Source: Gemmatimonadota bacterium
GTDB lineage: Bacteria; Gemmatimonadota; Gemmatimonadetes; Longimicrobiales; Gaopeijiaceae
Assembly: GCA_022827345.1 (NCBI GenBank)
Contig: JAJDTB010000032.1
Coordinates: forward strand, 310,001 to 374,000
DNA: 64,000 nt
Direction: 5' to 3'
Shown here: positions 1-8,289 of the stretch, piece by piece
Position numbering within the stretch: the first letter of the stretch is position 1
Layout: each line of letters starts with the position of its first letter
Made by a program: the position numbers and the translations under genes
The notes under the pieces: model-generated
Database searches by the model: none
Seen by the model: only the letters and a program-made list of their open reading frames with translations
Told to the model about the DNA's origin: nothing

Positions 1-223
1 TGTGGCAGTCGATCAATCCGGGCGTGAGCCACGCGCCCCCGCACCTCAGGACCTCGGGCGTGGAGGCTATCCGGTGCGCGGGAAGGTCCGCCATTCTGCC
101 CACCCACGCGATCCGTCCGCCGGCGCTGGCGATCGCCCCGTCTGCGATAATGCCGAGCGACCGCCCGGTCATCGTCGCGAGATTGACCTCGGTCCAGAGT
201 CTGTCCCACGGTTTTTCGGGCAT
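1..223 (-). CDS. hutI: Imidazolonepropionase, N-terminal part (cut by window edge)
   Basis: Imidazolonepropionase opens the imidazolone ring to give N-formimino-L-glutamate, the third step of histidine breakdown. Only about the first 74 residues lie in the window. The reading frame starts at ATG (221-223) and is open to the edge. It ends in the amidohydrolase signature LTPGLIDCH, the strand that carries the first metal-binding His of the family, preceded by the usual N-terminal beta-sandwich (IIADGAIASAGGRIAWVG). It lies divergent to hutF, with 138 bp between the starts, beside hutU and hutH. The family and the neighbourhood agree; the rest of the gene is outside the window. Confidence 0.85.
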   Translation of the reverse strand, partial: MPEKPWDRLWTEVNLATMTGRSLGIIADGAIASAGGRIAWVGRMADLPAHRIASTPEVLRCGGAWLTPGLIDCH

Positions 224-361: not shown

Positions 362-1813
362 GTGCCGCCCCGGACACCGGACCGACCCCCACTCCACTTC
401 GACCGGCTCCTGATCGGGGACCGGTGGGAGCGCGATGTGCGGATGGAAACCGGGGGCGATGGCCGCGTTGCCGCGCTCTCGCCACGGGGTTCGGGCGAGG
501 GATGCGAACGGGTAGCCGGATGGGCGGTGCCGGGGGTTCCCAACGTGCACAGCCACTCCTTTCAGCGCGCCATGGCGGGACTCGCGGAAGGGTGCGGGCC
601 GGATTCGTTCTGGCGTTGGCGGGACGTCATGTACGCGTTTGTCGACCGCCTGACCCCCGGCGATGTCGAGGCGATCACGGCGCAGCTGTACGTGGAGATG
701 CTGAAATCGGGCTTCACCTGCGTCGGCGAGTTCCACTACCTCCACCACGCGCCTGGCGGACGCAGGTACGACGATCCGGCAGAGATGAGCGGGCGGATCG
801 TCGCGGCGGCCCGAACGGTCGGGATCGGTCTGGTGCACATGCCGGTCGTGTACGAGGCCGGCGGCTTCGGCGGGAACGCGCTGCAGGGTGGGCAACGGCG
901 GTTTCGCATGGATCTGGAGGGTGCGGCGGGGCTGCTTGAGGCGCTCCGAGGGGAGTCGTTCGAGCCGGGCGTTCAGCTGGGGTGGGCGCTGCACAGCCTC
1001 AGGGCCGTCTCGCGGGAGACGCTGGGACGGCTGGACGAATTCGTTGCCGGCGATGCCCCCGTGCACATCCACATCGCCGAACAGGAGCGGGAAGTGCGCG
1101 ACTGCCTCGCGCACCGCGGCGCACGGCCGGTCGAGTGGCTGCTCGACCATGCCCCGGTGGACTCGCGCTGGTGCCTGGTGCACGCGACCCACGTCGCGGA
1201 TGAGGAGATGGACGGGATCGCGGCGAGGGGTGCCGTGGTCGGGCTCTGTCCGACCACGGAGGCGAATCTGGGGGACGGGTTGTTTCCGCTGGGGGCATTC
1301 GCCGCCGACGGCGGGCGCTTCGGGATCGGGACCGACAGTCACGTGTCTCGAAGCCCCGTGGAAGAGCTGCGGTTGCTGGACTACGGTCAGCGACTCGTGT
1401 CCCGCAGCCGCTCGGTGCTGGGGACCGAGCACGACAGCGCAGGGCGGGAGAAAGGGGCCCGGTCCGCGGTGCGGGACGCCGGGGGGCGGCGCGAAGGAGC
1501 CCTGTCGGGCGCCGGGGGCGCGTTGCTGGCCCACGCCTGGCGCGACGGGTGCGGGGCGCTGGGGTGGAACGCGGGCACCATTGACGCCGGTGCCAGGGCC
1601 GACCTCGTGGTGCTGGATGATGGACATCCCGCCCTGCTGGGTCGCGGCGGGGAAACGGTGCTCGATTCGTGGGTGTTCTCGGGGACGGAGAACCCGGTTC
1701 GGCACGTGATGGTGGGGGGACGCTGGGTTGTACGGGACGGGCGCCACCGCCGGGAGGAAGAAGTGAAGGAGGCGTTTGCGGAGGTCGTCAGGCGTCATTC
1801 ACGGGTTGCGTGA
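362..1813 (+). CDS. hutF: Formimidoylglutamate deiminase (HutF)
   Basis: This cytosolic zinc amidohydrolase converts N-formimino-L-glutamate to N-formyl-L-glutamate and ammonia, the deiminase branch of histidine degradation. The 483-residue protein has the expected motifs: metal ligands HSH (63-65), HIHIAE (235-240), HATH (274-277) and GTDSH (323-327), then a C-terminal beta-sandwich (ADLVVLDD). The start is GTG at 362, six bases after a GAGGAG ribosome site at 351-356. Residues around 355-385 form a charged, low-complexity insertion relative to the core. HutF implies an HutG-type formylglutamate amidohydrolase elsewhere in the genome, since none is seen here. It converges on hutU with 30 bp between the stops. 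Confidence 0.92.
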   Translation: MPPRTPDRPPLHFDRLLIGDRWERDVRMETGGDGRVAALSPRGSGEGCERVAGWAVPGVPNVHSHSFQRAMAGLAEGCGPDSFWRWRDVMYAFVDRLTPGDVEAITAQLYVEMLKSGFTCVGEFHYLHHAPGGRRYDDPAEMSGRIVAAARTVGIGLVHMPVVYEAGGFGGNALQGGQRRFRMDLEGAAGLLEALRGESFEPGVQLGWALHSLRAVSRETLGRLDEFVAGDAPVHIHIAEQEREVRDCLAHRGARPVEWLLDHAPVDSRWCLVHATHVADEEMDGIAARGAVVGLCPTTEANLGDGLFPLGAFAADGGRFGIGTDSHVSRSPVEELRLLDYGQRLVSRSRSVLGTEHDSAGREKGARSAVRDAGGRREGALSGAGGALLAHAWRDGCGALGWNAGTIDAGARADLVVLDDGHPALLGRGGETVLDSWVFSGTENPVRHVMVGGRWVVRDGRHRREEEVKEAFAEVVRRHSRVA

Positions 1814-1843: not shown

Positions 1844-3505
<1,662 letters not shown>

Positions 3506-3560
3506 TTTCATCTCCTGTCGGGCCCGTGTGCATCACCGGTTGAACGCCGCGGGGATTCCT

Positions 3561-5111
3561 TCACGAGCCGTCACGCCCCGAGCCGGTCAGCGCTCCCGCC
3601 CGGACCAGCCCTGTCAACACCGCGATATCATCGCTCAGCACCCGGTCCTCGACCAGCGGCGGCACCTCGGCGCGCACCGCTCGCAACGCGCGCTCCACAC
3701 CCGCCCCCGCACGCATCGGCCGGTGGAACTCCACCGCCTGCGCTCCGCAGAGCAATTCCACGGCCAGCACCGTCTCCAGCAGCGCGATGCTCCTGCGCAC
3801 CTTGCGCGCGGCCGCCATGCCCATCGACACGTGGTCCTCCTGCGACGCGCTCGTGGAGACCGAGTCGACGCTGGCGGGCGATGCCAGCACGCGCATCTCG
3901 GCCAGGGCGTCGGCCGCGACGACCTGCGCGATCATCAGGCCCGAACGGGCACCGGGCGCGGTGGTCAGGAAGGCGGGGAGGCCCGACAGATCGGGGTTCA
4001 GGAGGCGGTCGATCCGGCGCTCGCTGATCGAGGCCAGGTCGGCCGCCGCGATCGCGACCAGGTCCAGGCACTGGGCGACGATCTGCGCGTGGAAGTTTCC
4101 CCCGCTGAGCACACGCACCGCGCCGGAGCCATCCTCGGGGCGGGGGTCGTCTTCCCCGACCGGAACGACCAGCGGGTTGTCGGTGGTGGAGTTCGCCTCG
4201 GTCGTCAGGATCCTTGCGGCGTACCCATGGGCCTCCCGCGCCGCGCCGTGGACCTGCGGCATGCACCGGAGCGAGTAGGCATCCTGCACGCGCGCGTCCC
4301 CGGTCCTGTGGGATTCGCGGATCTCGGAGCCCGCCAGCAAGGCGCACAGCCTCCGAGCGCTCTCGATCTGGCCGGGGTGGGGCCGGGCCGCATGGATCTC
4401 GTCCCGGAACGCTTCGGGTGTCCCCCGCAGCCCTTCAAGGGTGGTCGCGCCCGCAACGTCGGCGGTGTCGAGCGCGCGTCCGAACCGCATGAGCGCCAGG
4501 GCGCCGATCGCCGTCACGGCCTGGGTTCCGTTGACGAGCGCCAGCCCTTCCTTTTCGGCGAGTTCGAGGGGCGCGATCCCGGCCCGGTCCAGGAGCTCGG
4601 ACGCTTCCGCCACCTCGCCGCCGGCCTCGGCCCGCCCCTCCCCCATCAGCGCCAGCGCCACATGCGCCAGCGGCGCCAGGTCACCGCTCGCTCCCACCGA
4701 CCCGATCTCGGGCACCATGGGATGGATTGCGTGGCTGAGGAGGTCGAGGAGGCGCTCGACCACGACCAGGCGGCACCCGGACTGCCCCCGGGCGAGCGCG
4801 TTGGCCCTGAGCAGGAGGATGGCGCGGACTTCCGCGGCAGGCAGCGGCCGTCCCGTCCCGGCCGAGTGGCTCCTGACCAGGTTGCGCTGCAGCGCCCGCT
4901 GTTCGTCGCGCGCGATCCGCACCTGTGCCAGCCTGCCGAAGCCCGTGTTGACGCCGTAGACGGGTCCGTCGGCATCGAGGAGGCGCTCCAGCCGCTGCCG
5001 TGAGCGCCGCACCCGTTCGGCGGCGCCCTCGTCGAGCCGCACCGGGACGCGGCCCCGCGCCACGGCTTCGACCTGGGCGAGCGTGAGCCCCATCCCGTCG
5101 ATGGTGATCAT
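3561..5111 (-). CDS. hutH: Histidine ammonia-lyase
   Basis: Histidine ammonia-lyase removes ammonia from L-histidine to give trans-urocanate, the entry step of the Hut pathway. The 516-residue protein has the Ala-Ser-Gly triad (A141-S142-G143 in SVGASGDLAPLAH) that cyclises into the MIO electrophile, and the active-site Tyr52 in VYGVNTGFG. Other family blocks are ALVNGTQAV and QVHGAAREA. The ATG overlaps the TGA of the upstream AhpD-like gene by four bases (ATGA, 5108-5111) and has no strong ribosome site of its own, so translation is probably coupled to that gene. hutU follows downstream. Confidence 0.96.
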   Translation of the reverse strand: MITIDGMGLTLAQVEAVARGRVPVRLDEGAAERVRRSRQRLERLLDADGPVYGVNTGFGRLAQVRIARDEQRALQRNLVRSHSAGTGRPLPAAEVRAILLLRANALARGQSGCRLVVVERLLDLLSHAIHPMVPEIGSVGASGDLAPLAHVALALMGEGRAEAGGEVAEASELLDRAGIAPLELAEKEGLALVNGTQAVTAIGALALMRFGRALDTADVAGATTLEGLRGTPEAFRDEIHAARPHPGQIESARRLCALLAGSEIRESHRTGDARVQDAYSLRCMPQVHGAAREAHGYAARILTTEANSTTDNPLVVPVGEDDPRPEDGSGAVRVLSGGNFHAQIVAQCLDLVAIAAADLASISERRIDRLLNPDLSGLPAFLTTAPGARSGLMIAQVVAADALAEMRVLASPASVDSVSTSASQEDHVSMGMAAARKVRRSIALLETVLAVELLCGAQAVEFHRPMRAGAGVERALRAVRAEVPPLVEDRVLSDDIAVLTGLVRAGALTGSGRDGS

Positions 5112-5755
5112 GCGGCCGGGCCGCCGTGCGCCGGGCCCGCGCCGCGTGCCGCCGTCCCCCCTCGCGCAGGCCTGAGAGCGACGAACTCTTCCCTGGTCAG
5201 CGTGTGGTCCGCGCCCTCCCAGTAATCTTCGAGCTCCACCCCAAGTCCGTCGGCCAGGCGGTTGACGTAGTTGTAGTACGATGTGACCTGGCAGATGTCG
5301 AGAATCGCGGCGTCCCCGAATCCGGCGGCCCGAAGCGCGTCCGTGTCGGCGGACGTCATGCCCCCCGGGTCGCGGGTCAGCTTGATCGCGTAGTCCAGCA
5401 TGGCGCTATCGCCGTCCGTCAGGGAATCCGGGCGCTTGCCCCGGGCCAGGGCGTCGCCGAGATCAGGCGTGCCGGTGATCCTGCGGAGTCCCGCTCCGTG
5501 GTGGTTGATTCAATAGAAGCAGTCGTTCGCGGCGGACACCGCCACCGCGATCATCTCGCGCTGCAACCTGGAGAGCGGCGAGCGGCCGGTCATGAGGTGG
5601 CGGTAGAGATCATGGTGGTGCTCCATGGAAGGCGGGTTCAATGAATGGACACGCAGGATGTTGTCCAGGTTCCCCCGCGCGTCCGAGTACCGCGCGTAGA
5701 GCTTCGCCAGTTCGGGTCCGGCTTCGTCGCGATTGGTGTATCGTATGTGGGCCAT
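5108..5755 (-). CDS. AhpD-like (carboxymuconolactone decarboxylase fold) predicted selenoprotein, TGA read as Sec82
   Basis: This peroxidase-related member of the AhpD/CMD family is expected to be a small thiol or selenol redox enzyme. The frame opens at ATG 5755, is interrupted by TGA at 5510-5512, and continues in the same frame for 133 codons to a TGA at 5108-5110 (215 residues if read through). The TGA falls in the active site: AANDCFY-U-INHHG. In AhpD the site is C-x-x-C with a His four residues after the second Cys; here C79, U82 and H86 keep that spacing, so Sec would replace the reactive Cys. Both halves match the family, with conserved-looking sequence on each side and no other stop. 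A SECIS-like hairpin follows the TGA. The gene leads hutH and hutU with a four-base overlap. No selA, selB, selC or selD is visible in the window. A nonsense mutation of a Cys codon is the main alternative. Confidence 0.75.
5484..5498 (-). promoter_or_regulatory. SECIS-like hairpin downstream of in-frame TGA
   Basis: In the mRNA sense, 11 bases after the TGA (5510-5512), the arms CGGAG and CTCCG form a perfect 5-bp stem closing the loop CGGGA. The apical loop starts 16 bases after the TGA and has G at its second and later positions. Known bacterial SECIS elements lie within the coding region just downstream of the UGA, with a guanine near the start of a short apical loop, so position and shape both fit. 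A lower CC/GG pairing across a small internal loop may extend the stem. Function is inferred from placement. Confidence 0.55.
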
Positions 5756-5784: not shown

Positions 5785-8289
5785 ATGTTCATGATACCCA
5801 GGAGCTTCCGCCGCGTGTTTAGCGTCACGGGCATGGCGATCGGCGGCGGTACTGCCGTCCGAACCCTCGCCGTCCTCGTCGCGGCCGTGGTGTCGGCGAC
5901 GAGCGCGGTCCACGCACAGGACGAGTTCGGGCGGATGGTTGCCGTGTCGGGCGAGACCGTCCTGGTCGGCAAGCCGGGCCCCGCCCGAGGACCCGCGGCG
6001 CTGTACCGGTTCGAGCGGGACAACACGGGCGCGTGGGTGCTCGCGACCTCGTTTTCGCCGCCGGGGACCGCCGAGCTGGGGTACCGCCTGGCGCCCTCCA
6101 TGCAGTGGAGCGGCGATCGACTGGTGGTGGGCTCCGCGGATCCCGATGTGGAGGTCGGAGCGCATGTCTTCCGCGGTACATCCGCCGGCCTGGTGCACGA
6201 AACCGGGCTGGAGCTTTTCCGGCCGGCGAACCCCGGCCAGGCCGCGGATCCCGGGGGCCCGGGCGGTGCGGCGCTGGACTTCCCCGGGATCATGCGGATC
6301 CTCGCGCCGCCGCTGCGCACGGTGGCGGTGGGCCGGGACCAGGTGGCGGTGTCGGTCGCGGGAGACGGTGCAAGCCCCCCCGCCGTGTACCTCTATCAGC
6401 GGGACGCGCGGCGCGGGTGGCAGCCTCCCACCCTGGTGCAGCTCCCCGGACCCGCCTCCGAGTACCCGGACTTCGGGGCCGCGATGGCTTTCCGGCGGGA
6501 CGAAGTGCTGGTTTCGTCGCCGAGCGCGGACGAGGTGGGCCGCGTGTTCGTTTTCCGGCCGCAGGACAGCGAGCTCGGGAACGTCACGCTGGCGCCGGCG
6601 GATTCGCTGGCGGCGGGAGCGCGCTTCGGAGCCACGCTGGCGGTCGACGGCAGCCGCATGCTGGTGGGGGCGCCGGGGGCCCGGGGGGGAAGCGGGCTGG
6701 TGTACGCATTCCGGCGCTTCGATCCCGGCGAGTGGGAGCAGCACCAGGTGCTTTCCCTCGGCGCGGATGAAGGCGGCGCGGCCCCGGGGTCCTTCGGAGC
6801 GACGCTCGCCCTGCTCGGTGACGAGCTGTGGGTGGGGGAGCCGGGCGCGGAGTCGGGCGCGGGCCGGGTCCACCGGTTCCGGTTGATCGACGGGGAGTGG
6901 CAGCCCGAGCCGGTCGCCATACCCCAGACCGCGCCCGGGGCAGGACTGGGCACGGCGATTGCGCTGGGGAGCCGCGTCGCGGTCGTGGGCGCGCCGGGAA
7001 CGGACGGCGGCTACGGGGCCGCCATGGTGTTCACCCGGGAGCTGGGCGGACCCTGGGGCGAGGCCGAGTGGCTCAGCCCCGGACCCGGACCCGAAGCCGT
7101 GACCGGGGGGGAGGTCACCTGCGAGGACGGCGCCGCGGCGGCATTCTCCTGCGACAACGTCGACCTCATCGCCTTCCTCCCGAATTCCGCGCTCGGCGGC
7201 GGCCCCGGCGAGCGCGTCAGCGACGTGTGGGGCTGGTCGGACCCGGAGACCGGCCGCGAGTACGCCCTGGTCGGCCGCACCGGCGGCGCGGCGATCGTCG
7301 ACATCACCGACCCGGCGGCCCCGCGCCATGTCGGCACCGTCCCCGCCAACCCGAGCGGCGCGCGGGACCTCAAGGTCTACGCCGACCACCTCTTCTTCAC
7401 CGGCGACGGCGCCGGCGCCCACGGGCTCGTCGTCTTCGACCTCACCCGCCTCCGCGACGCCGTCCCCGATCCAACCAGCCCCACCGGCGGCGTCGATTTC
7501 GAGCCCGACGCCGTCTACCGCGGCATCGAAAGCGCCCACAACCTCGTGATGGACGCCGAGAGCGGCTTCGCCTTCCCCGTCGGCGCGAGCGGCGGCGGCG
7601 AGACCTGCGGCGGCGGCCTCCACATGGTCGATGTGCGCGATCCCAAGGCCCCAGTCTTCGCGGGCTGCTTCACCGACACCGTCGGGCTCATCGCGCCCGG
7701 ACGCACCCACGACGCCCAGTGCGTCGTCTACCGGGGCCCCGACGACCGCTACCAGGGCCGCCAGCTCTGCTTCATCTCGAACGAGACGCTGCTGAGGATC
7801 GTCGACATCACCGACAAGGAGGCCCCCGCCCCCATCGGCGCCGCCAGCCACCCCGGCGTGGCCTACATCCACCAGGGCTGGCTCACCGAAGACCACCGCT
7901 ACTACTACCTGGACGACGAGCTCGACGAACTGGTCGGCACGGCCCCGAGAACCCGCACCTTCATTTACGACGTGGCGGAACTCGACGACCCAATCCTGGT
8001 CGGCCACGTCGACGGCCCGACCGGTGCGACCGACCACAACCTCTACGTCAAGGGCGACCGGATGTACCAGGCCAACTACCAGGCCGGCTTCCGCGTCTTC
8101 GACATCAGCGATCCGGAGGCGCCGGAGGAGATCGGCTGGTTCGACACCACTCCGTACGAAGGCGATCCGCCCGGGTTCGTGGGAGCGTGGACGGCCTACC
8201 CCTACTTCGAGAGCGGCACGGTGGTCGTCACCAGCATGTACGAGGGGCTGTTTCTGCTGAGGCCGAGGCCCAGACAGCTGATTCCCTGA
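5785..8289 (+). CDS. Secreted FG-GAP / choice-of-anchor-B family protein
   Basis: The 834-residue protein has an N-terminal signal segment (charged start, hydrophobic TLAVLVAAVVSATSAVHA, cleavage near HAQ). Residues about 45-440 hold FG-GAP-like repeats (FGATLAVDG, LLVGAPG-type blocks), predicting a beta-propeller. The C-terminal half, from about residue 465, is a choice-of-anchor-B region with LVIVD-like repeats: AIVDITDPAAPRHVG, HMVDVRDPKAPVFAG, RIVDITDKEAPAPIG, RVFDISDPEAPEEIG. Such proteins are extracellular or surface exposed and of unknown specific role. The start ATG at 5785 follows GGAGAG (5773-5778). It is divergent from the AhpD-like gene with only 29 bp between the starts, so their promoters must overlap. 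No catalytic motif was seen. Confidence 0.8.
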   Translation: MFMIPRSFRRVFSVTGMAIGGGTAVRTLAVLVAAVVSATSAVHAQDEFGRMVAVSGETVLVGKPGPARGPAALYRFERDNTGAWVLATSFSPPGTAELGYRLAPSMQWSGDRLVVGSADPDVEVGAHVFRGTSAGLVHETGLELFRPANPGQAADPGGPGGAALDFPGIMRILAPPLRTVAVGRDQVAVSVAGDGASPPAVYLYQRDARRGWQPPTLVQLPGPASEYPDFGAAMAFRRDEVLVSSPSADEVGRVFVFRPQDSELGNVTLAPADSLAAGARFGATLAVDGSRMLVGAPGARGGSGLVYAFRRFDPGEWEQHQVLSLGADEGGAAPGSFGATLALLGDELWVGEPGAESGAGRVHRFRLIDGEWQPEPVAIPQTAPGAGLGTAIALGSRVAVVGAPGTDGGYGAAMVFTRELGGPWGEAEWLSPGPGPEAVTGGEVTCEDGAAAAFSCDNVDLIAFLPNSALGGGPGERVSDVWGWSDPETGREYALVGRTGGAAIVDITDPAAPRHVGTVPANPSGARDLKVYADHLFFTGDGAGAHGLVVFDLTRLRDAVPDPTSPTGGVDFEPDAVYRGIESAHNLVMDAESGFAFPVGASGGGETCGGGLHMVDVRDPKAPVFAGCFTDTVGLIAPGRTHDAQCVVYRGPDDRYQGRQLCFISNETLLRIVDITDKEAPAPIGAASHPGVAYIHQGWLTEDHRYYYLDDELDELVGTAPRTRTFIYDVAELDDPILVGHVDGPTGATDHNLYVKGDRMYQANYQAGFRVFDISDPEAPEEIGWFDTTPYEGDPPGFVGAWTAYPYFESGTVVVTSMYEGLFLLRPRPRQLIP

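Follow-up and report, generated by a model that had tools for sequence, protein, structure and literature searches.

The window analysed here is a stretch of 64,000 nucleotides (positions 310001-374000 of contig C9) from a 4.79 Mb Gemmatimonadota genome that is available as a draft assembly of 75 contigs. Its left end carries genes of a hut operon. Histidine ammonia-lyase (hutH, 3561..5111; TIGR01225, 642 bits, cut-off 539) and urocanate hydratase (hutU, 1844..3511; TIGR01228, 942 bits, cut-off 375) are encoded on the minus strand. A gene for formimidoylglutamate deiminase (hutF, 362..1813; TIGR02022, 561 bits, cut-off 413) lies inside the cluster on the plus strand, and the 5' part of an imidazolonepropionase gene (hutI, 1..214, minus strand; TIGR01224, 428 bits, cut-off 298) runs leftwards out of the window, the whole gene occupying C9 308997-310214. 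At the head of the operon is a predicted AhpD-like selenoprotein gene of the peroxidase-related type (TIGR01926), which spans 5108..5755 on the minus strand and is supported by its translation, a family profile and orthologues. Its stop codon overlaps the hutH start codon in the sequence ATGA (5108..5111, minus strand). The arrangement ahpD, hutH, hutU, opposite-strand hutF, hutI recurs in several genomes from this genus and family.

Some features of the surrounding genes are worth recording. HutF (362-1813) exceeds its family models in length and matches them in two stretches; residues of about 363-420, around SRSVLGTEHDSAGREKGARSAVRDAGGRREGALSG, are unmatched, which may reflect an insertion or a local shift of frame. 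The divergent neighbour of the selenoprotein gene (5785-8289) encodes a choice-of-anchor B family protein (TIGR04312). No more than about 30 nt separate the start of its frame from that of the selenoprotein gene, which requires either very compact promoters or a misplaced start. Little Shine-Dalgarno complementarity precedes the start of many selenoprotein genes (L021-L073), which may mean that the transcripts are leaderless. The Shine-Dalgarno energies predicted for hutH range widely within the genus.

The selenoprotein frame reads from 5755 to 5108 on the minus strand. It is interrupted by a single internal TGA (5512-5510) and closes at a terminal TGA (5110-5108). When the internal TGA is translated as selenocysteine (Sec), the 215 codons before the stop give a product that begins MAHIRY and continues through AANDCFYU82INHHGAGLRR. 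The original prediction described an AhpD/CMD frame crossed once by TGA exactly at the second Cys of a CxxC site (C79-F-Y-U82), with His86 at the AhpD spacing, and both translation and the family match confirm this. TIGR01926 aligns to residues 5-174, spanning the TGA, with 144.7 bits (cut-off 81.8; 2.4e-42), and Pfam CMD also matches. The frame was further said to stay open and family-like for 133 codons beyond the TGA. It is open throughout these codons, but it resembles the family only to about residue 185. The last 30 or so residues vary among relatives and are unlike the family. A plus-strand reading of the region gives no family protein and was rejected. Ordinary annotation would split a gene of this kind at its UGA.

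All of the residues expected at an AhpD active site are present. Glu67 (5555..5557), Cys79 (5519..5521), Tyr81 (5513..5515), Sec82 (5510..5512) and His86 (5498..5500), all encoded on the minus strand, are invariant among 30 orthologues. In PA0269, the residues that make up the proposed proton relay of AhpD (Glu36, Cys48, Tyr50, Cys51 and His55; PMC3141380) have the same spacing. Tyr81 and His86 take the positions of PA0269 Tyr50 and His55, and of His132 and His137 in Mycobacterium tuberculosis AhpD. Cys79 is the first, or partner, Cys of the CxxU pair. Solved Cys relatives (3c1l and 2pfx among them) align through the site and have Cys at position 82. An AlphaFold2 model based on 30 orthologues (pLDDT 77.6, falling below 50 from residue 201 on) adopts the all-helical AhpD fold. 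Foldseek matches the model to AhpD-type structures including 3c1l, 2pfx, 6k40 and 2oyo, the best being 3c1l with a TM of 0.82 by target.

The internal TGA is conserved across a wide range of relatives. In the same GTDB family, 54 orthologues were read, and every one has it at codon 82, at identities from 97% down to 53%. A search of 295 related genomes returned close homologues with one internal TGA; 81 loci were read from it, plus ten of a paralogue class. TGA occupies the aligned codon in each of the 70 main Sec-type loci (L021-L090), and TGC or TGT takes its place in eleven remoter ones (L091-L101). Four other homologues have TGC (G023, G039, G065 and G069), and no selA was found in their genomes. 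Overall, TGA is found in all Sec-clade homologues, and TGC or TGT in 15 others. The Cys anticipated at position 82 in relatives is seen both in these homologues, four of them from genomes without detected selA, and in the solved Cys structures. Named genomes were scanned as well, and the top 80 loci, which are those nearest to a Sec query and not a census, all carry TGA; they come from Gemmatimonadota, Chloroflexota, Planctomycetota, Acidobacteriota, KSB1, SAR324 and others. The collected Sec-type homologues with TGA number 150, of which 94 are distinct around the site. Placing the Sec and Cys states on the tree calls for two changes.

Selection also acts on both sides of the codon. Within the genus, pN/pS computed from uncorrected proportions has a value of 0.15 for the part preceding the TGA and of 0.35 for codons 13-87 beyond it. 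Purifying selection on either side implies that the product is selected as one protein. A sequencing or assembly error at 5510-5512, or a pseudogene with a nonsense mutation, might be suspected in a draft assembly of 75 contigs, but this reading already fails on account of the identical TGA in the nearest named relative (a Gemmatimonadetes metagenome bin, 97% identity) and in dozens of independent genomes down to 53% identity, and also conflicts with the selection 3' of the codon and with the conserved hairpin described below.

The host genome encodes the machinery needed for selenocysteine insertion. Matches to these families were counted only above their cut-offs, as control genomes gave widespread weaker ones. 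By this standard selA (508 bits), selB (321 bits), selD (378 bits) and a tRNA-Sec gene (76.5 bits; tRNA-SeC with anticodon tca (UCA) according to ARAGORN) are all present, and the objection that the machinery might be absent fails. The selD gene (L018, G000:C61:28808-29728) has an internal TGA of its own and probably encodes a selenoprotein, as in many bacteria. Among 72 genomes of the family, selA occurs in 36 of the 37 that have the selenoprotein gene versus 22 of the 35 that do not (Fisher p 0.0002, with kinship uncorrected). The exception, G024, carries a Sec gene with TGA (L039) and no selA was found in it; this genome is 88% complete in 830 contigs, and selA may be missing from the assembly.

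These results bear on the objection that the UGA is a true stop. UGA is a normal stop codon in this genome, and an in-frame ATG at 5401 could serve a downstream product, so that an 81-residue protein might be made and the rest translated separately or not at all. Such an arrangement is highly improbable. It would break off the CMD domain halfway through the active site, and the codons past the UGA are under purifying selection. The Sec machinery is present in the genome, and the gene is nearly restricted to genomes bearing selA.

A candidate signal for selenocysteine insertion lies just downstream of the codon. A predicted bacterial SECIS hairpin, CGGAG-CGGGA-CUCCG (5484..5498, minus strand), starts 11 nt after the UGA. 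Sec homologues share a consensus with the stem CGGRG/CUCCG and the loop CGGGN, which includes the guanosine looked for in the apical loop of such elements. All five stem pairs can form in 77 of the 94 non-redundant Sec sequences. In 200 trials in which every protein was kept but synonymous codons were drawn anew according to the usage of the genes themselves, a five-pair stem appears in a mean of 12 and a maximum of 24 of the 94. Conservation of the hairpin therefore exceeds what protein conservation explains. The five-pair stem is found in none of the 15 Cys homologues. Compensated pairs, with U-A replacing C-G, occur in L161 and L173, the hairpin is displaced by three bases in L183 and L187, and some distant homologues are without it. 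Single-sequence folding of the region after the UGA scores no better than shuffles (z 0.29), and Rfam holds no family matching the hairpin. The hairpin is accepted as a SECIS element because of the comparisons with shuffles and Cys homologues, rather than its single-sequence energy.

With these components, SelB and charged tRNA-Sec would act with the hairpin 11 nt downstream to make the ribosome read UGA codon 82 as selenocysteine. Comparison strongly supports this decoding, and the codon is almost certainly used in this way. The original prediction that a TGA at the reactive Cys marks a selenoprotein thus has the backing of the Sec machinery, the conserved TGA and the Cys homologues. Leaving aside any role in histidine metabolism, the gene very probably encodes a Sec-decoded AhpD-like oxidoreductase. 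The product would be an all-helical enzyme of the AhpD/CMD fold, with Cys79-x-x-Sec82 as its redox pair and Glu67, Tyr81 and His86 as its relay. To judge from the family, the enzyme probably works through a redox cycle in which the selenolate reduces a peroxide or disulfide, forms a selenenylsulfide with Cys79, and is re-reduced by some cellular donor.

Other chemistries are known for this fold, and a Sec enzyme might, for example, carry out reductive dehalogenation in the manner of Bmp8 instead of reducing peroxides or disulfides. The fold search does match structures of the Bmp8 debrominase (6ohi, E 1.7e-4). However, the match to the peroxidase-related group is far better in both sequence and fold and nothing in the operon is related to halogens, which leaves a Bmp8-like role very unlikely. 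The literature searched yielded nothing on Bmp8.

The link to histidine genes noted in the original prediction is right, and it is conserved across one family of uncultured Gemmatimonadota and seen only there. The 54 loci of this GTDB family include three on contigs that end too soon to be informative. In 45 of the 51 testable loci a same-strand hutH directly follows the selenoprotein gene, and in six it is absent. A 4-nt NTGA overlap is possible in 36 of the 45 hut-linked loci. Selenoprotein genes that lack an adjoining hutH are L036/L130 (G008), L044, L052, L054, L056 and L074. The whole G008 genome yielded no hutH, and the selenoprotein gene may have outlived the pathway there. Outside the family, the neighbours of the gene vary; the flanks read contain no hutH, and no other common neighbour is evident by eye. 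Eight loci (L205-L212) from genomes without the selenoprotein gave no Cys version at the head of a hut operon. In the tree, the family sequences group together as a single supported clade of 55 (SH-aLRT 97), and the distribution fits a single gain of the hut position followed by several losses.

The host genome has a second TIGR01926 homologue, L111 (G000:C5:9833-10393), in which TGA occupies the corresponding position (GCFYUTQAHAHDLR). It belongs to a separate supported clade with L102-L110 of relatives. Its aligned stretch also contains a TAG, which is probably the real end of the protein.

The position of the selenoprotein gene at the front of an operon, ahead of hutH and hutU, suggests that the job of the protein is tied to histidine breakdown. 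From operon position, the chances of such a tie can be put at about even. The simplest roles would be to keep the Hut enzymes reduced or to remove peroxides that arise along the pathway; the literature searched holds nothing usable on the thiol sensitivity of histidine ammonia-lyase. The gene is not required for histidine breakdown, since 23 of the 35 family genomes without it still have hutH.

The hut link could instead be incidental. A general antioxidant selenoprotein may have been placed before hutH in an ancestor of the family and retained there by the overlapping start. The changing neighbours of the same protein outside the family fit this account, as do the family members that have no nearby hutH and the many genomes that have hutH without the gene. 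On the other hand, most of the family has retained the adjacency and gene order despite large divergence. Gene presence also goes with hutH, which is found in 35 of the 37 family genomes with the selenoprotein gene versus 23 of the 35 without (72 genomes; p 0.0025, kinship uncorrected). An incidental link is a serious contender, with a probability somewhat short of even.

The UGA may have a regulatory consequence as well. Ribosomes that fail to insert selenocysteine would stop about 400 nt upstream of the overlapping hutH start and never reach it, and this is what makes selenium-gated hutH expression possible. Under such control, the supply of selenocysteine would largely decide whether HutH is made. 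That UGA decoding gates histidine breakdown by selenium supply, with the selenoprotein itself serving the redox needs of the pathway, is a speculative and rather unlikely combination. If this translational coupling is true, selenium supply would affect histidine degradation.

The selenoprotein itself belongs to a known family, and what is new is the hut position conserved across one bacterial family. As the original prediction had it, Sec-containing AhpD-like proteins are known from environmental DNA. AhpD-like CxxU selenoproteins were first described from the Sargasso Sea metagenome in 2005 (PMC1088965) and proved abundant in ocean samples, with one named 'AhpD-like 1' (PMC2398784). A further paper places them under TIGR01926 (PMC13188914). 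The open-licence literature searched holds no earlier mention of a selenoprotein linked to hutH or, in agreement with the original prediction, of an AhpD-like selenoprotein tied to a histidine operon. The present sequences add a well-supported clade to the known family and, as far as could be found, tie an AhpD-like selenoprotein to a defined catabolic operon for the first time. This linkage is a concrete lead on the role of AhpD-like selenoproteins.

Several known systems share parts of this arrangement. The Cys-form proteins mlr4105 (3c1l), the TM1040 protein (2pfx) and the AhpD-like protein of D. radiodurans (6k40) have the fold and active-site motif in common with the selenoprotein, and 3c1l is its best match in both sequence and structure. 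These forms have Cys in place of Sec, and no hut operon link was found for the three. Loss of the Deinococcus AhpD-like Cys protein leads to greater H2O2 sensitivity (PMC8945050). M. tuberculosis AhpD has a relay of Glu, Cys-x-x-Cys and His with the same spacing (PMC3141380), but it uses Cys rather than Sec and is a distant fold match (E about 0.1). NF041238 (AhpD_rel_CFYUT, a family of 357 positions) also has the CFYU motif; the match here is only partial (64.4 bits versus a cut-off of 175), and membership was rejected.

The hut genes themselves are those of a standard bacterial operon, as hutH, hutU, hutI and hutF all score over curated cut-offs. The operon differs from the standard one in having a selenoprotein gene at its head that overlaps hutH. 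Known AhpD-like selenoproteins (TIGR01926/COG2128) likewise have a CxxU site with Sec for the second Cys and a SECIS-type hairpin downstream. The available parts of the reports on them give no genomic link to histidine genes, whereas here the hut operon begins with the selenoprotein gene.
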